Made by a program: the position numbers and the translations under genes. From a virus, in IMG/VR virus record IMGVR_UViG_3300023176_001575, positions 1-26,650 of that record: 26,650 nt of DNA; one strand, given 5' to 3'. The notes under the pieces were generated by a model. It was not told the origin of the DNA. It saw only the letters and a list, made by a program, of their open reading frames with translations, and did not search any database. Positions 16,091 through 24,608 of this stretch are shown piece by piece. Within the stretch, counting starts at the first letter, position 1. Each line of letters starts with the position of its first letter.

Positions 16091-16477
16091 TTAAAGTTTT
16101 GCACCAACATCTGTAGCACGTTTAGCCATTTGATCCACAGTATCGCCGCCTGTTTGACTATCTGCTTGAGGCACATCAGACTTTTCTTGTTTAGCAGTTT
16201 TTGGTTCTATACCTTCCTGACTAAAATTAGACACCATTGCTTTTACTCTTGGATCAGTATCATATGCTGCTTTGAAGGAATTGTAATCAAATGTTTCTGC
16301 GCCAACATTCTGCATAAGTTTATTTAGATCTAAATTTTTTGATCCTTGGCGTATTGCATCTGCTTTAGGTTTATCAAAATGTAAAAAAACGGTGACGCCT
16401 TTTTGATCAGCATCACCGATTATTGTTCTAAGTACTTGTACTAATTTACTAGGCTGGGCAGTTTCATCCTCTGTCAC
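16091..16477 (-). CDS. Acidic/polar protein, 128 aa, possibly expressed partly by -1 frameshift
   Basis: The frame begins with GTG at 16477, which overlaps the stop of the upstream gene as GTGA. Only A-rich sequence lies where a Shine-Dalgarno should be. The first ~75 residues are mixed alpha/beta (KLVQVLRTIIGDADQKGVTV). The C-terminal ~45 residues are polar and Gln/Asp/Gly/Thr-rich, probably disordered. I do not recognise a family. A slippery A AAA AAG at the end of the upstream gene would, after a -1 shift, read straight into this frame and give a fusion of about 542 residues. Whether it is made alone, as a fusion, or both is open. Confidence 0.72.
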   Translation of the reverse strand: MTEDETAQPSKLVQVLRTIIGDADQKGVTVFLHFDKPKADAIRQGSKNLDLNKLMQNVGAETFDYNSFKAAYDTDPRVKAMVSNFSQEGIEPKTAKQEKSDVPQADSQTGGDTVDQMAKRATDVGAKL

Positions 16478-16501
16478 TTTTTTTTTGACAAAAGAACTCC
16501 T
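16474..16501 (-). promoter_or_regulatory. Candidate programmed -1 frameshift site (A AAA AAG) with SD-like stimulator
   Basis: On the minus strand the upstream gene ends TCA AAA AAA AAG TGA. A AAA AAG is the heptamer used for -1 frameshifting in bacterial dnaX. AGGAG (16497-16501) lies 13 nt upstream of the heptamer, comparable to the dnaX stimulator, which sits about 10 nt upstream. The -1 frame continues as GTG ACA GAG, which is exactly the next gene. I see no strong downstream hairpin. Nine adjacent A residues also make a sequencing or assembly error possible. Confidence 0.5.
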
Positions 16502-18184: not shown

Positions 18185-18377
18185 TTTTTGCAACCACAAA
18201 ACTATTTTTATGACGTATCTTACTTACCAGACTTTTTCGTATCAAGTTGTTAATAATGACTTGTTCTCTTTCGTTAAGACTACTTATTGCTACAGGGGTG
18301 TCTAACGAGTCATAAAGAAACTTTTCCTCGTTAGTCATGTATATAGAAAAATCTGCAATAAGATCGTTTATTTTCAT
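18174..18377 (-). CDS. Small protein with possible winged-helix fold, 67 aa
   Basis: ATG at 18377 overlaps the upstream stop (ATGA). The sequence reads as two helices (INDLIADFSIYMTNEEKFLY; SSLNEREQVIINNLIRKSLV) and a short hairpin (KIRHKNSFVVAKND). This helix-helix-wing order is like compact winged-helix DNA-binding proteins. Similar small proteins (NEE..., EREQ..., NLIRKSLV) seem familiar from marine T4-like phages but have no known role that I can cite. A regulator or DNA-binding structural protein is possible. The fold guess is weak. Confidence 0.72.
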   Translation of the reverse strand: MKINDLIADFSIYMTNEEKFLYDSLDTPVAISSLNEREQVIINNLIRKSLVSKIRHKNSFVVAKNDK

Positions 18378-18655
18378 CTGATGCTTGCAATCTGTGCTTG
18401 TATAGCTTTTACGTTTTCTTTAGCTGCTTTTTCAGCGTCTTGTGCTTGCTTTAGTTGTATTTGTAACTGCTTCTTTTGTGCAATTTTTTGTTGGTTTTGT
18501 TTCATAGGATCCATTGCCTGACCCTGTTGATCTGCTGCTTGGTTTGTTGCAGTGTTAGCTTGTGTTTGCGGAGTAGATGGTGCGCCAGCTACATTAGTAC
18601 CGGGTGCGCCAGGTGCTGTAGGGATTGCTTCGTTTACTATATCTAATATTTTCAT
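18374..18655 (-). CDS. Low-complexity plus coiled-coil protein, 93 aa
   Basis: ATG at 18655 has AGAAGG upstream and overlaps the preceding stop (ATGA). The N-terminal leader MKILDIVNEA is similar to the T4 capsid-targeting leader, with a possible cut after E9. Residues 11-50 are Pro/Ala/Thr/Gln-rich and likely disordered. Residues 52-93 (KQNQQKIAQKKQLQIQL, then AKENVKAIQAQIASIR) form a long Gln/Lys/Ala coiled coil. No catalytic residues are visible. It fits a scaffold- or internal-protein type, but composition alone does not prove it. Confidence 0.75.
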   Translation of the reverse strand: MKILDIVNEAIPTAPGAPGTNVAGAPSTPQTQANTATNQAADQQGQAMDPMKQNQQKIAQKKQLQIQLKQAQDAEKAAKENVKAIQAQIASIR

Positions 18656-18936
18656 ATCTTTTTCCTTCTGGTGCCAGCATTCATTCTTGCTACTCTTTTT
18701 GAAACAGGGTTAGTCCTTTTAGTCCTACTTGTTTTAATTTTTATAGTTTGTCCTTTAGCCCTTTTGGTTGCTTTAAACTGTTGGCTTTTCTTAATGTTGA
18801 TAGGTGCCATACAAGCCGCCGCACTTGCTCTAAGTTGTCCTTTTCTCGGACCTGTAGTACATCTATACTTATATGTAGGCCCGCTTTTGCTTTTACCCCA
18901 TGCTCGAGTTGCTTCAAAAATCTCTACTACTAGCAT
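18652..18936 (-). CDS. Basic protein, paralog B of a tandem pair, 94 aa
   Basis: The ATG at 18936 overlaps the stop of the neighbouring paralog (TAATG). The leader MLVVEIFEAT contains I-F-E before A9, an exact fit to the T4 gp21 cut pattern. The rest is strongly basic. The core KYRCTTGPRKGQ has its second Cys 15 residues after the first, then PINIKKSQQFKATKRAKGQ, then SRTKRTNPVSKRVARMN. It aligns along its length with the protein at 18936-19208. The Lys/Arg content suggests nucleic-acid binding or DNA condensation in the head. The paired Cys could bind metal or form a disulphide, but two Cys alone are too few for a zinc site in a monomer. Confidence 0.8.
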   Translation of the reverse strand: MLVVEIFEATRAWGKSKSGPTYKYRCTTGPRKGQLRASAAACMAPINIKKSQQFKATKRAKGQTIKIKTSRTKRTNPVSKRVARMNAGTRRKKI

Positions 18937-19208
18937 TATCTGTTTAGCCTTTTCAACAACTTTGATGCAGGATTTACTCGTTTAGTTTTTCTTGCCTTTC
19001 TAACTATACGTGATCCTAATCTTGCTTTTGTTCTTTTAAAAGTTGCTCTCTTTTTCAAATCAACTGGTTCGAAGCATTGAGATGTTTTGGCAACAACTCT
19101 GCCCTTTCTTCGGCCTGAAGTACAACGATATTTTCTTACCAGTTTCGTACCTTTTCTGGCCCAAACCTGTTTTTCGTCTAGGGATATAGTCAACTCTCTT
19201 AATAACAT
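18936..19208 (-). CDS. Basic protein, paralog A of a tandem pair, 90 aa
   Basis: It shares with the next gene the order KYRCTSG-RKG, Cys 15 residues later, P-(V/I)-(D/N)-(L/I)-KK, FK-T-(K/R)-A, K-KTKR-NP-SK-L-RLN. About a third of the residues are Lys or Arg. The leader MLLRELTISLDEK has LDE before K13, a weaker protease-site match. No Shine-Dalgarno precedes the ATG at 19208, and a CATAAATA element ends only 5 nt before it, so a near-leaderless late transcript is possible. It is probably a DNA-binding structural or internal head protein, by composition and context only. Confidence 0.8.
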   Translation of the reverse strand: MLLRELTISLDEKQVWARKGTKLVRKYRCTSGRRKGRVVAKTSQCFEPVDLKKRATFKRTKARLGSRIVRKARKTKRVNPASKLLKRLNR

Positions 19209-19213
19209 AAAGT

Positions 19214-19221
19214 TATTTATG
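19214..19221 (-). promoter_or_regulatory. T4-like late promoter candidate (CATAAATA) just before the basic pair
   Basis: The minus-strand CATAAATA ends at 19214, and ATG begins at 19208. Transcription starting at the usual distance would begin at or near the start codon. It may therefore produce a leaderless message or serve mainly the second gene of the pair. Confidence 0.42.
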
Positions 19222-19227
19222 CAGATT

Positions 19228-19470
19228 TTAATTGAAAGATATTAAAAGTACAACAATAGTAGATAGTAGGCCAGCAACAATGGTTCCGGCTGCACCTACT
19301 ATTACTTTTATCATTGAAGAATTACCACTCTGAATGTCTTTACGAATTTCAGTAACTGTGTGTTCTACTTTTTGTAATCTTTCATCCAGTTGCTGATAAC
19401 GAAGAGCACACAGATCAACGTGTGCTTCTAAACTTTCTTTTTCTAATGATGTGGTAGGCAAATCTGCCAT
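19228..19470 (-). CDS. Coiled-coil protein with C-terminal membrane segment (XhlA/holin-like), 80 aa
   Basis: ATG at 19470 follows GGAG at a good distance. Residues 10-47 form a heptad-rich helix (LEAHVDLCALRYQQLDERL, then VEHTVTEIRKDI). Residues 53-79 are one hydrophobic segment (MIKVIVGAAGTIVAGLLSTI and on to ISFN). This layout of a soluble N-terminal coiled coil plus one tail-anchor helix is that of hemolysin XhlA-type proteins and some phage holins. It could form the membrane lesion for lysis, or anchor a complex at the membrane. No second membrane helix is present. Holin function is unproven. Confidence 0.78.
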   Translation of the reverse strand: MADLPTTSLEKESLEAHVDLCALRYQQLDERLQKVEHTVTEIRKDIQSGNSSMIKVIVGAAGTIVAGLLSTIVVLLISFN

Positions 19471-19541
19471 AATAAATTCTCCGTAAGTAAACTCGTAGTT
19501 GGCCTTAGTATGTGTTATTATGTTTGCCTATTGTATGCATT

Positions 19542-19549
19542 TATTTATC
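19542..19549 (-). promoter_or_regulatory. T4-like late promoter candidate (GATAAATA) for the holin-like gene
   Basis: GATAAATA on the minus strand overlaps the TGA stop of the gene ending at 19548 and precedes a 77-bp gap before the ATG at 19470. The gap otherwise holds only the GGAG ribosome-binding site and an 11-codon frame not thought to be real. Confidence 0.5.
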
Positions 19550-19940
19550 AGTCTTCTAAGAAATTAAACACTATGTTTGTGTCATTTTTACAAGAAGTTC
19601 TAAATACTCTGTTGTTGTTACTGGCTGTTTCATCTAGATCTGTAATGATAGGAATTAAATCAAAATCATTTTTTAGCATTTCTTGATTAATTGCACCTTC
19701 GTAATCTACTTCAAAACAAAAATCCCAATAACGCTGTTTACCTGTATATGATTTACCAAAGCCTAACGTGTCTATTTCTCCCACACAAACTTTACAATAA
19801 ACAGGTGATAGGTTGACACGAAGTCCTATAGTTTGCAGAACAGTATTGTAGTTTGCCTGTTGACTATAAAGTTTTTTGTCGTCTTGTCTTCTAGCATTAG
19901 TTTCTGTAATATCAACAAGAGTTTTGAGTTTTATACGCAT
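19548..19940 (-). CDS. Protein of unknown function, 130 aa
   Basis: The ATG at 19940 lies 20 nt after the terminator of the upstream gene and has only a weak Shine-Dalgarno (TAAG). The protein is mixed alpha/beta. A basic N-terminus (MRIKLKTLV) leads into a Gln/Asn/Lys stretch and then a Cys-containing core (PVYCKVCVGEIDTLGFG). WDFCFEVDYEG and an acidic beta/loop tail (FDLIPIITDLDET, ending FLED) follow. Four Cys occur, but not in a clear metal-site pattern. I do not recognise the family. Because it sits behind a terminator it probably has its own promoter; GATAAGTA around 19948-19955 is a weak late-type candidate. Confidence 0.75.
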   Translation of the reverse strand: MRIKLKTLVDITETNARRQDDKKLYSQQANYNTVLQTIGLRVNLSPVYCKVCVGEIDTLGFGKSYTGKQRYWDFCFEVDYEGAINQEMLKNDFDLIPIITDLDETASNNNRVFRTSCKNDTNIVFNFLED

Positions 19941-19958
19941 ATTTTACTTATCGGTCAT

Positions 19959-19987
19959 AAAAAAAGGGCCCACATAAATGTGAGCCC
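19959..19987 (-). terminator. Rho-independent terminator after the 118-aa gene
   Basis: On the minus strand GGGCTCACAT and ATGTGGGCCC form a stem with one G-T pair and a very short loop (19966-19987), followed by seven T (19959-19965). It starts 24 nt after the stop at 20012. This is the only textbook terminator in the window. Confidence 0.88.
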
Positions 19988-20011
19988 CAATCCTAAGGTA
20001 GTTAGGAAATA

Positions 20012-20368
20012 TTAAGCAACTGCGAAGCTTGATGCTGCTGCAACTGCTGTGTCTGTTCCAACACCGTCAAGTGCTTCGATGCGAGCTGCAATTGAAGCTG
20101 CTGTGTTGTGATGACCGTCCATGATAACTGACATTGTGCCGTTACCATCGTTAGTTGCGTGAGCAAGCATTGGGCTTAGTTCACGTAGGATTAGGTCATA
20201 TAGTGAACCTGATGCACCGTCGTTTGCACGTAGATCAACTGCTGTGTTGTCGCCGTTTGATGTTGAACGTACTGTGATTAGGTATCCCTGTAGTTGTGCT
20301 GTAGTTTCTAGTGTTCCTACTGCGTTTGCTCCACCGTTCGCTGGTGTTACGTCATATGTTACTGCCAT
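20012..20368 (-). CDS. Ala/Gly/Thr-rich lysine-free protein, likely abundant virion protein, 118 aa
   Basis: The gene has a strong Shine-Dalgarno (CAGGAG), its own 5' hairpin and a rho-independent terminator, so it is a one-gene transcript. Its GC content and codon choice (GCT, GGT, GAC, CGT) are clearly richer than its neighbours, as expected for very high expression. The protein has no Lys, Cys or Trp, only four Arg and many Ala, Gly, Thr and Asp. It reads as short beta strands (GYLITVRSTSNG, TMSVIMDGHH) with a helix (SIAARIEALDG). A decoration, head-fibre or tail-associated structural protein is the best guess. No family is recognised with certainty, and a role in the host cell cannot be excluded. 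Confidence 0.82.
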   Translation of the reverse strand: MAVTYDVTPANGGANAVGTLETTAQLQGYLITVRSTSNGDNTAVDLRANDGASGSLYDLILRELSPMLAHATNDGNGTMSVIMDGHHNTAASIAARIEALDGVGTDTAVAAASSFAVA

Positions 20369-20393
20369 TTTCTTTCTCCTGTTTCTCTAATGG

Positions 20394-20416
20394 CAAAACG
20401 CCGCTCAAGCGTTTTG
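20394..20416 (-). promoter_or_regulatory. 5' stem-loop in the leader of the 118-aa gene
   Basis: CAAAACGC and GCGTTTTG are perfectly complementary (8 bp) around a 7-nt loop. The hairpin lies between a late-promoter-like GGTAAATA (20426-20433) and the ribosome-binding site near 20377. It could stabilise the 5' end of the mRNA, or act as a weak terminator of the upstream operon. It lacks a T tail outside the stem, so the first is more likely. Confidence 0.55.
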
Positions 20417-20425
20417 TTACATTAT

Positions 20426-20433
20426 TATTTACC
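20426..20433 (-). promoter_or_regulatory. Weak T4-like late promoter candidate (GGTAAATA)
   Basis: GGTAAATA on the minus strand matches six of eight bases of the T4 late element. It lies 10 bp upstream of the leader hairpin and in the 80-bp gap after the gene ending at 20449. A start near 20420 would put the hairpin at the very 5' end of the message. Confidence 0.4.
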
Positions 20434-20448
20434 ATTTTACAGAAAAAA

Positions 20449-21324
20449 CTAGTCTTTTAGGTGTTTTTTGGCTCTCTGATGGAGAACTTTTAGTTGTTGA
20501 ATGTACCCCGGGCCTGCTTGTACAATCTCTGTAACCATTTTGATTACAGGCAAATATGCAGCCACCATTGTACTAGAAACCGCTGTTCCTTTTTTAGCAA
20601 AATTAATAAACTGCTTTGCCATCATTAATTTACTTGTACCAACCAAATATTTGTAATTGTTTATTGTTGCATCATCAACAACTATATCTGGAACACTGAT
20701 GTTAGGTTCTGTGTCTACAACATTACTATTTTCAAAATCGCCTTGTTGTGCAAACTTTTCCAAGTGTTCTATTATATCACTTGATCTTAGTTTAGCTCTT
20801 GCAGCGTACAAAAGTTTTGTTATTGTTTGCCCACGCTGCACATTGTTTAGTTTACTAAAATTAAGTATGTTGCGTCTAATTATTTTATAGTCGCTATTTG
20901 TTATTTTTAACGCAGATTCTACCTTAATAACTATTTCACTACCGCTAGTTGTATCACTTCCTGTTGATATTTTATGTAAATATCCATTAAGTTGCATTGT
21001 TGGCAGGTGTACATACTGTCTCAGTCTTCTAGCAGCAGCCGGGTCTTTTAATTTATCTATTGCTTGGTCATCGCCTGTTACATAATATATAAAATTATAT
21101 AAATCTGTAGCATCGACTTTAAATTTATTGTAGTTAGAATATTGAGTTGTTTTAGAAGTATATTTTTGTACGATATTTTTATATGCAGGAGACAATCTTA
21201 ACGCTTCTAATATTAGAAGTGTTAGGTATAATCGTTCGCAACAATCTGTAAAAGTCAAAGACTTTCTATTATTTGCATCTCGGGTCATCCTAGCTTCTTG
21301 TAGGTCCTGCAAAAATTCCATCAT
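20449..21324 (-). CDS. Helical protein of unknown function, 291 aa
   Basis: The first ATG (21324) overlaps the upstream stop (TAATG); a second Met follows directly. The leader MMEFLQDLQEARM contains L-Q-E before A11, an exact gp21-type pattern. The remainder is mostly alpha-helical and basic (SPAYKNIVQKYTSK; RRLRQYVHLPTMQLNG; AARAKLRSSDIIEHLEKFA). A short acidic beta-like section lies near residues 205-220, and a last helix ends in KVLHQRAKKHLKD. No catalytic motif or known domain is recognised. It is the last gene of the 24858-20449 operon, so it is probably co-produced with the ligase-like and nucleotidyltransferase proteins. Confidence 0.8.
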   Translation of the reverse strand: MMEFLQDLQEARMTRDANNRKSLTFTDCCERLYLTLLILEALRLSPAYKNIVQKYTSKTTQYSNYNKFKVDATDLYNFIYYVTGDDQAIDKLKDPAAARRLRQYVHLPTMQLNGYLHKISTGSDTTSGSEIVIKVESALKITNSDYKIIRRNILNFSKLNNVQRGQTITKLLYAARAKLRSSDIIEHLEKFAQQGDFENSNVVDTEPNISVPDIVVDDATINNYKYLVGTSKLMMAKQFINFAKKGTAVSSTMVAAYLPVIKMVTEIVQAGPGYIQQLKVLHQRAKKHLKD

Positions 21325-21704
21325 TATCCTAAGTACTTCTGCATAAACATTTTTGGCATTTCGTGATAATCTTTAATGTCTAAGAAATCAACCAAACCAT
21401 TTGATGTTTGAATATCCTTAATAAATTGTGTGCGAACTATTGGTTTCACTTTGTCAGTAGTAGCAAACATTCTGAGCATTCTAGCTTGGTCTGCTGTTAC
21501 TTTATGTTCTTTCCCGTCATCTGTAACCACAGTATTAACAGGCTTTGGATTGCCTTGACTATCCAAAACTTTTCCTAGTTGATCAAACATAGATGCTTGC
21601 TTAAAGCCTTGACCTTCATCATCATCTCTGTCTAATTCTGATCCTAAGTTACCTAAACCAAAGTCTCTAAATGATGCTTCTTTAACAATGTCATTCATTT
21701 TCAT
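21324..21704 (-). CDS. Protein of unknown function with capsid-targeting-like leader, 126 aa
   Basis: The ATG at 21704 has AAGGA 8 nt upstream and lies 11 bp after the ligase-like gene. The leader MKMNDIVKEA is close to that of the 93-aa protein at 18374-18655 (MKILDIVNEA) and to T4 internal proteins. A polar, Asp-rich section (SELDRDDDEGQG) follows, then a compact helical C-terminal half (TADQARMLRMFATTDKVKPI; YHEMPKMFMQKYLG). No catalytic motif is visible. The next gene starts in its stop codon, so the two are probably translated in fixed ratio. Confidence 0.8.
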   Translation of the reverse strand: MKMNDIVKEASFRDFGLGNLGSELDRDDDEGQGFKQASMFDQLGKVLDSQGNPKPVNTVVTDDGKEHKVTADQARMLRMFATTDKVKPIVRTQFIKDIQTSNGLVDFLDIKDYHEMPKMFMQKYLG

Positions 21705-21715
21705 TGTAGTATTCC

Positions 21716-22894
21716 TTATCGTTGTACTGATCTATTTGCCCTGGTAAAATATTTACGAGGTACAAGTTTTATGTCACCTTGTGGGTGAGCCATTACATAA
21801 CCTTCACCACCTTCACCGTGGGCATCTGAAGTTACAGGACCATGTGGCCCTATTGAAGCCTTAACATCTGTATTATGACTATCAAATTGATTGATTACAT
21901 CATCTTTAATTTGTTGTATGCCTTTTACTATTGTCCATAATGCAATAAAGCCTTGATTATTTTCCCTAATCCATTCAAAAATTCTTTTCTTTTTGGGATC
22001 ACTTAATTTACTCGTACTTAGCCAATTTTCAAAATCGTCGCCTAAGGTTGAAAGATCGCCATCTACTTTGTGATTTGTATAGGTGTATAAAACTTGACTA
22101 AAATCTTTAATTTTTAATTCTGTAAGTCTTGCAACATTAAGAAGTGCATCGATTGCTTGTGCGTTCTGAGCAACAAGCGCCTTTAGATTGTTAATATTTT
22201 CATCATCTATTTCTGCTGGCTGCTGTACTGTTACCGAAGGGAATATCAAAACTTCTTCGCCTTGGAACTTATCTCGTATCGCAGGCGCAATTTCTGTTTC
22301 TTGTCCTGTTGTTGGATCTATATATCTATGTATGACTATTCCTGTTTTAGATCTAGCAATCCTTTGTCCTAAATCACTGTTTTCAGCAACTGTATATGTA
22401 ACAATGTTTGGTGTAAAAATGTAGTTACCATTTTGTTTTTCAGGTGTATTAAAATATAACAAATCGCCTTTAAAAAATCCTATTAAATCAGATGGCACTG
22501 CTTTTTCATATTCGTCAAAAATGTCAGCCATATTACCTGCTAGTTGTCTATAACCTTCTGGATCATTTTGTGCGCCGGGCCGGGCCATAAACATTGCCGC
22601 CACATCCTTTGCTGACTTTGCTTTTCCGTCATATCCTTTGGCTCCAAATCCTGATTTGTCTGTGAGTATAAACTCTCCATTTTCATCGCGGCCAAAAATG
22701 ATTGCGGGAGATCCGTCCCATTTAATAGTGACATTTGTGTGTTGACCTTTCTCTAAATTTAATAAACTATCCAATGCTCTAACAGCACCTTTAGATCCTT
22801 CCCAGAAAACAATATCTTCAGCATGCTGTATGCGAGCTTCTGCTTCATTTAACTGTATTTTTGATTCTACTAACTTTATTTCTCTATAACGCAT
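21716..22894 (-). CDS. Protein with DNA/RNA ligase-type covalent nucleotidyltransferase motifs, 392 aa
   Basis: Motif I of the ligase/capping-enzyme superfamily (K-x-D-G) fits VTIKWDGSPAIIFG, with K58 as the candidate AMP/GMP-carrying lysine. Further along, LIGFFKGDLLYF (about 137-148) is a weak match to motif III. GEGYVMAH (E364-G-Y-V) and DIKLVPRKYF (K376) fit motifs IV and V near the C-terminus. The order and spacing suit the fold, although 200 residues of helical sequence lie between III and IV. If correct, it could seal or modify nucleic acid or a protein. The substrate is not known. The leader has LVE before S11 and LNE before A18, both gp21-like. The gene starts in the upstream stop (TAATG). 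Confidence 0.78.
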   Translation of the reverse strand: MRYREIKLVESKIQLNEAEARIQHAEDIVFWEGSKGAVRALDSLLNLEKGQHTNVTIKWDGSPAIIFGRDENGEFILTDKSGFGAKGYDGKAKSAKDVAAMFMARPGAQNDPEGYRQLAGNMADIFDEYEKAVPSDLIGFFKGDLLYFNTPEKQNGNYIFTPNIVTYTVAENSDLGQRIARSKTGIVIHRYIDPTTGQETEIAPAIRDKFQGEEVLIFPSVTVQQPAEIDDENINNLKALVAQNAQAIDALLNVARLTELKIKDFSQVLYTYTNHKVDGDLSTLGDDFENWLSTSKLSDPKKKRIFEWIRENNQGFIALWTIVKGIQQIKDDVINQFDSHNTDVKASIGPHGPVTSDAHGEGGEGYVMAHPQGDIKLVPRKYFTRANRSVQR

Positions 22895-23730
22895 TATGCT
22901 AGTCCTGTAACCTGTGCTCCTAGAGATGCAACACTTACACCGCCAAATGTGCTTATGTCATAGTCCCAATACCTATTTGGTCCTGTGTCAACATGAAGCA
23001 CATTAGATCCAAAACCAAATCCACTAAAGCCAGCACGTCTTGCTGCCTGTACCAATCTTAGTTTATCGTTGTCACGCATACCACTAATATTTAGATCTAA
23101 AGCCCTTCCGTGGAAGTGCTGGCTTCCTGGTGTGTTTGTTTCTCTACTTGTACCTGCCCTGGCAATGGCATCATTTATCCCTACTTCTCTACCAAACAGT
23201 CTAACCATTTCTCTATAAGGTCCTGCTAGAGTTGCATCCATGTTAGCTTCTGCATCTCTAGACGTCATACGGCTTTGGCTACCGTCCAGGGTAAACAACG
23301 CACCGGAACTAGTTGGTCTTGTAAACTCGCTTGATGGACTATCTTGTCTTCCACCTCTAGGTCTATTTGATGATGAGTTACTACTGCCTCTAAACGGTCT
23401 AGCAGGTTGCAGCTCTCCTCTTCCTAATTTTTCAATAGCTTGTAAACTAGGTTCTCCAAATACATCACCACCACCTGGAATATTATAATCACTTTTGAAG
23501 GCAGCAACAGCCCTTGCAGTGTTAGATCCATACTTACCGTCTACTCCTGTTGGGCCTACATCATATCCCAGTACACTAAGGATGTGTTGTACTTGAGAAA
23601 CTTGTTCTTTTTCCTCTTCTGGATATTCTCCAGCATTGTGTTTGCGTAACTCTTCAGATAAAGCTAGTGACTCGCATAGACTTTTTAGATAAAATAAGCT
23701 TTCATTTGTTCTGAATTCTTCAAATCTCAT
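22894..23730 (-). CDS. Peptidoglycan-binding and peptidase M15-type cell-wall hydrolase, 278 aa
   Basis: Residues about 43-85 form a PG_binding_1-type helical repeat (VQHILSVLGYDVG; GVDGKYGSNTARAVAAF). A Ser/Arg/Gly/Pro linker (about 112-145) leads to a C-terminal M15 domain. S203-Q-H205-F-H-G-R-A-L-D212 and LHVD (H246) give the zinc ligands H205, D212 and H246 typical of D-Ala-D-Ala peptidases such as VanY and many endolysins. It should cut the peptide part of peptidoglycan. The N-terminus MRFEEFRTNES is leader-like but a poorer protease-site match. It may be the lysis enzyme or a virion-borne wall hydrolase. It overlaps its neighbours by 4 and 1 nt. Confidence 0.87.
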   Translation of the reverse strand: MRFEEFRTNESLFYLKSLCESLALSEELRKHNAGEYPEEEKEQVSQVQHILSVLGYDVGPTGVDGKYGSNTARAVAAFKSDYNIPGGGDVFGEPSLQAIEKLGRGELQPARPFRGSSNSSSNRPRGGRQDSPSSEFTRPTSSGALFTLDGSQSRMTSRDAEANMDATLAGPYREMVRLFGREVGINDAIARAGTSRETNTPGSQHFHGRALDLNISGMRDNDKLRLVQAARRAGFSGFGFGSNVLHVDTGPNRYWDYDISTFGGVSVASLGAQVTGLA

Positions 23731-24608
23731 TTTATCCCTGCCAAGTCTTTAATTCTTGCTAGTTCGTTGTCTGCTTGACTTCTAAGTTCGGGAGGAACGC
23801 CTATGTCTTGGACCTGCGCATTTTGTGCAAAGCTATCTAATATCCTTTGAGTAAGTTCTTCAGGATAGTTCTTCTCCATTGCAAGTTTTAGACTTTCGTA
23901 ACTGTTTAGATCTTTAACATTATCTAGTCCTAGTGCTTGTGCAACTTCGTTGCCGTCTGTGATTGGGTCGCCTATAACAGTATCAATATTTGCTTTTGTG
24001 TAGCCTTGGCCGTTTGCTTTAGGCTTAGGTTTTCTTTCTACACGTAGTAATCCGTTGTTGCCCCACTTCCATCTTGTCACAGAAACAGGACGTCCATCAT
24101 CTATTGTTTCTTCAGACTTTTCTCTATCATAAAATGCAGCGATAGTTGAAATAAGAATATTTCTAAACACACCTTTGTATTGTGATTCTTCTCTACTGGG
24201 AGAATGGTAGTAAGTTCTTAACCAGTTAGGATCGCCGCCAGGCATAAAATCAACCTGTACTTTACCTGTGCGTGGGCCATGTTTTGGATCATTGCTTTTC
24301 TTTGTAGCATCATAGCCTACTATCATCACACTAGATAATATTAAACCACCTTTTGGTTCGTGAGCAATAATAACAGGAGAGGCAGCAACTTTTTGTTTAA
24401 GTTCTTCGAATTCTTGTGGACTGCGTATTTGTACAGCAACATCAATGTCGCCGGAAAATTCTTTCTTGCCTACGCTACCAAGCACCCAATTTTGAAGATC
24501 CATTCCTAAACTTTGTTCTAATCTAGCAAGGGTAGGTTTAATTTCGTCAATATGTATCGGGCCTACTCCAGGCATGTGTGGAATATCTGCTTCGAAGAAT
24601 TTAGTCAT
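23727..24608 (-). CDS. Polymerase-beta-fold nucleotidyltransferase, 293 aa
   Basis: The signature hG[GS]-x(8)-Dh[DE]h is clear: G44-S45, then SGDIDVAV with D54 and D56. The third metal-binding Asp is D120 in KVQVDFMPGG. These residues bind two Mg2+ and transfer NMP to an acceptor in the family (kanamycin nucleotidyltransferase, minimal NTases, tRNA-modifying enzymes). Basic stretches near 180-205 (VTRWKWGNNG; VERKPKPKANGQG) could hold nucleic acid. The acceptor is unknown. The very short N-terminus MTKFFEADIP has FFE before A7, a near gp21 match. It overlaps the small gene upstream by 8 nt and the M15 gene downstream by 4 nt. Confidence 0.85.
   Translation of the reverse strand: MTKFFEADIPHMPGVGPIHIDEIKPTLARLEQSLGMDLQNWVLGSVGKKEFSGDIDVAVQIRSPQEFEELKQKVAASPVIIAHEPKGGLILSSVMIVGYDATKKSNDPKHGPRTGKVQVDFMPGGDPNWLRTYYHSPSREESQYKGVFRNILISTIAAFYDREKSEETIDDGRPVSVTRWKWGNNGLLRVERKPKPKANGQGYTKANIDTVIGDPITDGNEVAQALGLDNVKDLNSYESLKLAMEKNYPEELTQRILDSFAQNAQVQDIGVPPELRSQADNELARIKDLAGIK

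Follow-up and report, generated by a model that had tools for sequence, protein, structure and literature searches.

In E. coli dnaX, the heptamer A_AAA_AAG lies in phase by a stop codon and the frameshift shortens the product. T. thermophilus dnaX and IS-element genes carry a conserved run of exactly nine A's from which two products arise, and it has been proposed that nine A's conserved among homologs mark purposeful transcriptional slippage (PMC1088944). Frameshifted virion or assembly genes have also been described in phages (T3/T7 gene 10A/10B, Lactobacillus phage A2, Listeria phage coat proteins and tail gpG/gpGT), where -1 or +1 recoding near the gene end gives a minor C-terminally extended form of the protein (PMC5009743). 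The T4 protease gp21 cleaves its substrates behind L/I-x-E, and leaders of about 10 residues with such a site at their end take internal proteins into the head (PMC9026906), IPI-III and Alt being the capsid-targeted examples. In retroviral Gag-Pol, a minor frameshift product joins a second protein to a structural one and carries it into the particle, and the viral protease releases it.

The locus described here lies in the window, a 26,650-base virus contig from IMG/VR that was analysed as a whole and compared with its IMG/VR relatives. Two overlapping genes, named A and B, meet at a run of nine A's:

17718-16474, minus strand: gene A, open reading frame of 414 aa, its 0-frame product ending in ...RRLGVLLSKKK and the stop
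16501-16497, minus strand: AGGAG, SD-like, 13 nt 5' of the heptamer, present in the window's clade only
16486-16478, minus strand: A9 run, candidate slip site, in the context TCA AAA AAA AAG
16483-16477, minus strand: heptamer A_AAA_AAG, the last seven bases of the A9+G run
16477-16475, minus strand: GTG of the gene B reading frame, in a 4-nt overlap with the TGA (GTGA)
16476-16474, minus strand: TGA, 0-frame stop of gene A, 1 nt past the A9 run
16477-16091, minus strand: gene B, open reading frame of 128 aa, open in the -1 frame

Gene A ends with ...TTA GGA GTT CTT TTG TCA AAA AAA AAG TGA, and the A9 at the A/B junction is the sole run of nine or more A's or T's in the window. We consider it very probable, from comparison with the relatives, that this run is a programmed -1 recoding site yielding an A-B fusion. 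Straight reading of most transcripts would give A (414 aa) and -1 reading of a fraction would give a fusion of 542 aa (...LLSKKK-VTEDETAQ..., with the predicted junction peptide KVTEDETAQPSK), which would be the normal source of B and its sole source in most relatives. We infer from sequence that the fusion is produced, as well as its rate, the machine responsible and its purpose. No earlier description of this site was found in a literature search, most subscription journals being outside its reach.

An earlier sequence-only reading of the window had placed the heptamer directly before the TGA with AGGAG 13 nt upstream, and these coordinates agree with ours. It had also remarked that the -1 frame leads precisely into the next gene, which is true and yet uninformative, since any 4-nt overlap leaves the downstream gene in -1 relative to the first. 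The A/B arrangement by itself proves nothing; the evidence for recoding is its conservation.

Compared with E. coli dnaX, the locus has the same heptamer in phase by a stop codon, to which the window adds an SD-like element; here, however, the shift lengthens the product into a fusion, the family conserves neither SD nor hairpin, and nine A's are kept rather than six. The likeness to T. thermophilus dnaX and the IS-element genes is the conserved run of exactly nine A's with two products, whereas here the short product would be the standard one and slippage would add a second gene to a phage virion gene, as read from sequence alone. With the phage frameshifts it shares recoding near the gene end with a minor extended form; unlike them, it involves a different pair of proteins and a candidate protease site at the junction, and some clades have exchanged it for a separately started B with its own leader.

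Conservation was followed from both genes. A search with gene B gave 80 IMG/VR loci, to which extra searches with distant members added more, leaving 76 after deduplication. In 45 of these, 8-10 A's end gene A and B lies in the -1 frame, and 29 of the 45 have no ATG, GTG or TTG in the B frame ahead of the conserved domain; in the other 31, the run is lost and B begins at its own ATG. Gene A was found in at least 564 IMG/VR contigs, which makes its carriers an abundant uncultured marine jumbo T4-like phage group, and 57 distinct deep loci among the matches listed were added to the set; run and -1 frame are present in all 57 (A9 in 52, A8 in 4, A10 in 1). All slip junctions collected, including these 57 from the gene A matches listed, come to 95 distinct ones.

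B lies in the -1 frame at 95/95 of these junctions, and no stop codon occurs within its first 15 codons. The run is A9 in 82, A10 in 8 and A8 in 5, and is followed by G (86), T (8) or C (1). It opens at the wobble position of a TCA (84), CCA (3), GGA or TTA codon, and the 0-frame stop lies 0-13 nt past the run, mostly 0-7. Eighty of the 95 junctions have no ATG, GTG or TTG at the junction (GTA, GTC, GTT, GAC, ATA and GCT are examples) and in 68 the first 15 B codons lack any start; at the loci without a start, the earliest one in frame mostly comes 30-60 codons into the conserved domain. Thus the claim of the sequence-only reading that -1 recoding fuses A and B into 542 residues is borne out by the family. 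Gene callers limited to ATG, GTG and TTG would, in most members, miss B or start it 30-60 codons late.

The GTG of the window has to be judged against this background. GTG is found at the junction in 15/95, equal to the number with TGA as the stop of A, and the GTG of the window, which exists only through the TGA of A, is best read as incidental. As the window itself has a GTG, the lack of independent initiation of B can be claimed for it only through its family. Additionally, dN/dS of B is 0.05-0.14 between locus pairs, pairs without any start codon included, and B is by this measure a real protein under strong purifying selection. The slip arrangement is kept even in two loci whose B has 39% identity (L169, L216).

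The 31 loci without the run bear on the refutation proposed for the fusion, namely homologs in which the heptamer is absent while both genes persist. Literally, these loci are such homologs; however, they have swapped the site for a separate start codon and a leader. In one example the junction reads TCA ACA AAG AAG TAA GGATTAGAC ATG, with the run gone and the ATG present, and one locus (L020) looks intermediate, with TCA AAA AAG AAA TAG, an open -1 frame and an ATG. Separate loci end A as STKK, SSRK or SSRN; since the A protein of these loci does without the lysines, slip loci would keep them for the nucleotide run. B of the separate loci starts at its own ATG with a leader of 8-10 residues of the form M(K/R)...(L/I)xE. 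On a tree of B, separate-gene loci form nested groups that correspond to about three changes, with slip loci on both of the deepest branches (the tree was rooted at midpoint only, and many forks are weak). This constitutes a natural experiment in which the same two proteins would be obtained via slippage in most lineages or via separate starts in nested clades that gained a leader.

As to the machine that shifts, polymerase, ribosome or both would give the identical 542-aa protein, so that proteomics alone cannot separate the mechanisms. We lean towards transcriptional slippage, in which RNA polymerase would insert one additional A at the nine-A tract. In the coding sequences of four relatives, sense runs of nine or more A's number 13 against 47.2 +/- 5.0 expected from synonymous shuffles, a 3.6-fold depletion (0/200 shuffles as low as 13); by the same shuffles A8 is depleted 1.8-fold and A5-A6 are undepleted. 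Runs of eight or more are depleted whichever of the three phases they occupy (0.38-0.49), in-frame A6G heptamers only to 0.70, and all four relatives keep the A9 run at the A/B junction. Transcriptional slippage is favoured both by this frame-independent avoidance of A>=8 elsewhere and by the keeping of nine A's where the heptamer needs six. A run of about nine or more, as transcriptional slippage calls for, is found at 90/95 junctions (A9 or A10), with A8 in 5. Additionally, 9/95 junctions carry A10T or A9C in place of A9G; in E. coli, A_AAA_AAA and A_AAA_AAC are reported to shift much less readily than A_AAA_AAG (PMC5009743), and these nine junctions, whose heptamers would be poor for such ribosomes, favour the polymerase as well. 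On the other hand, replication slippage can likewise cause avoidance of long A runs, and a second upstream A9 that is present in eight loci would, under transcriptional slippage, truncate A at a cost.

These eight loci (L019, L030, L057, L059, L060, L067, L069 and L071) have the second run 48 or 57 nt 5' of the junction run; reading in -1 from that point would end at a stop within three codons, and a truncated third A product is possible. In another locus (L256) a second TCAAAAAAAAAG lies within the first codons of B, as though the slip site had been duplicated in tandem. A recurrent A9 was seen in just one further gene, represented by apparent homologs in two genomes (G002, 29370-30788, and G003, 71527-73266; L227 and L235), each with an A9 and an A8 run C-terminally, the counterpart in G001 having two A8 runs.

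The rival that survives best is ribosomal -1 slippage of the dnaX type on A_AAA_AAG alone, stimulated by an SD or a hairpin and with no polymerase slippage, which we regard as rather unlikely. The junction is A-run plus G at 86/95, with A_AAA_AAG in frame, the window has its AGGAG, in-frame A_AAA_AAG is mildly avoided elsewhere, and in a few lineages the site is followed by highly stable hairpins (z to -5.95). In L075, L165, L166 and L079 a strong hairpin begins 7-11 nt past the site, as expected of ribosomal frameshifting, and counts against the polymerase. Nevertheless, the dnaX-like apparatus proposed by the sequence-only reading is not supported in the family. The AGGAG is confined to the window's close relatives and no SD-like element is conserved across slip loci; anti-SD pairing 5' of the heptamer was not above background in 45 loci (mean duplex -3.1 versus -3.7 kcal/mol), and downstream folding showed no overall difference between slip and separate-gene loci. 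One close relative of the window (L001) has no downstream hairpin (z +1.85). A general SD or hairpin stimulator was dropped for these reasons, neither pairing nor folding being stronger than in the respective comparison. The nine A's and the nine A10T or A9C junctions weigh against an exclusively ribosomal shift as they weigh for the polymerase. Transcriptional and ribosomal slippage acting together are somewhat less likely still than the ribosome alone.

Translational coupling, in which ribosomes ending at the TGA would re-initiate at the GTG and produce free B and no fusion, is improbable. It draws on the classic GTGA overlap of the window and on the GTG at 15/95 junctions, and re-initiation could also supply some free B in the window and at the 14 other GTG junctions. 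However, coupling cannot serve the 80 startless junctions, at which A-run, -1 frame and purifying selection on B persist, the GTG just tracks the TGA of A, and no SD is suitably spaced from the GTG, as the sequence-only reading had correctly noted. A sequencing or assembly artefact, whereby a single missing A would split one long gene, has a negligible probability, for although homopolymers are error-prone in principle, the split recurs, with its run length, at 95 distinct junctions from many metagenomes with differing stop codons and positions, the window junction is shared exactly by two independent metagenome assemblies (L001 and L002), and other lineages evolved two separately started genes.

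The programmed recoding preferred here would join a virion protein to a second protein. Gene A matches phrog_14154, 'virion structural protein' (E 1.4e-12), as do 23/30 of its relatives, and its central helical domain corresponds to the N-terminal part of gp44 of Agrobacterium phage Atu_ph07 (profile E 4e-15), a 771-aa virion structural protein in one continuous frame with a different C-terminus and with no B detectable there; the virion proteomics of Atu_ph07 has been published (PMC6102473). Among cultured phages, only the central domain of A reaches Atu_ph07, and tblastn against cultured phages with B, with the B of one relative (L080) and with full-length A gave no match. An AF2 model of A is all helical with acidic linkers (mean pLDDT 67.7). 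The B of the window gave nothing significant against PHROGs and Pfam. Its model is a compact domain (pLDDT 76) with a best Z of 4.9 to a winged-helix domain (PDB E 0.15), a weak match that suggests a winged-helix-like fold and from which no function is drawn. A tail-assembly chaperone of the gpG/gpGT kind was considered and rejected, since A matches a head-and-packaging virion family and not tail chaperones, and an exonuclease, a tail-spike-like gene and nrdA/nrdB lie beside it.

Why a phage would attach B to a virion protein can be approached through short motifs around the junction and in neighbouring genes. As a tentative proposal, to which we give somewhat less than an even chance, A may deliver B to the head in a low, fixed proportion, and the gp21-type protease of the phage may free it there. 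B would enter the head solely as the C-terminal part of a minor, extended form of A, a cut at (L/I/V)xE past the junction would release it, and clades that split the genes would have given B a capsid-targeting leader of its own, fusion and leader being interchangeable delivery routes. If this is true, recoding and head assembly would be connected in T4-like phages. The relevant features of the window are as follows, a slash marking the candidate cleavage point:

16477-16469, minus strand: V-T-E, candidate prohead-protease site (KKK-VTE/D) directly past the junction
17718-17668, minus strand: N-terminus of A, MIIREINRPITSASLNE/T, possible targeting leader with an LxE site, conserved across A relatives
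18374-18655, minus strand: neighbour gene with capsid-targeting-like leader MKILDIVNE/A
21324-21704: neighbour gene with capsid-targeting-like leader MKMNDIVKE/A
21716-22894: neighbour gene with capsid-targeting-like leader MRYREIKLVE/S
22894-23730: neighbour gene with capsid-targeting-like leader MRFEEFRTNE/S

Each element of this delivery is backed by comparison, packaging and cleavage being suggested by the short motifs. Past the junction, [LIV]xE is found in 36/38 distinct slip loci versus 10.5 expected from shuffles, and the strict [LI]xE in 16/38 versus 5.7; [LI]xE is present in 21/21 distinct separate-gene leaders versus 7.5 expected. Leaders of this type occur on several neighbours in the window (MKVYELYEG, MRVHEIFEN, MKILDIVNEA, MKMNDIVKEA), and in four relatives they are enriched at N-termini, with 18/867 versus 15/3611 at internal Met (p 7e-6). 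Two deeper jumbo relatives with the slip site (G019 and G020, of 357,559 and 330,024 bases) encode a gp21-type protease (139582-140208 in G020) and gp23, and the gp23 of one of them has an LSE/S site ahead of SATAGATSAGN; a gp21-type protease is also found in Atu_ph07. In the incomplete contigs nearer the window, gp20, gp21 and gp23 were not found, nor were they found via contigs extending the 179-kb one, and the terminase PF03237 was not found in the shorter contigs.

With T4 IPI-III and Alt, the separate-gene B shares the leader form and the two jumbo relatives share the protease type; unlike the T4 sites, the predicted site of the slip-type B frequently opens with V in place of L/I. The likeness to Gag-Pol is one of proposed logic only, for here the virus is a dsDNA phage, there is no sequence relation, and packaging and release would be predictions from motifs.

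Some further observations concern the window and its relatives. On the minus strand of the window, several consecutive genes at 18374-24608 have M(K/R)...xE leaders, which suggests a block of head-bound proteins. A contig of this phage group (L162 / L213) lies inside a GTDB genome labelled as a Rickettsiales MAG, which may be a hint of the host or a binning error. Finally, within its first 40 kb the 179-kb relative (G001; L217-L218) has a long row of open reading frames with at least eight radical-SAM CxxxCxxC motifs and with SPASM-like cysteine motifs, which is unusual in a phage.
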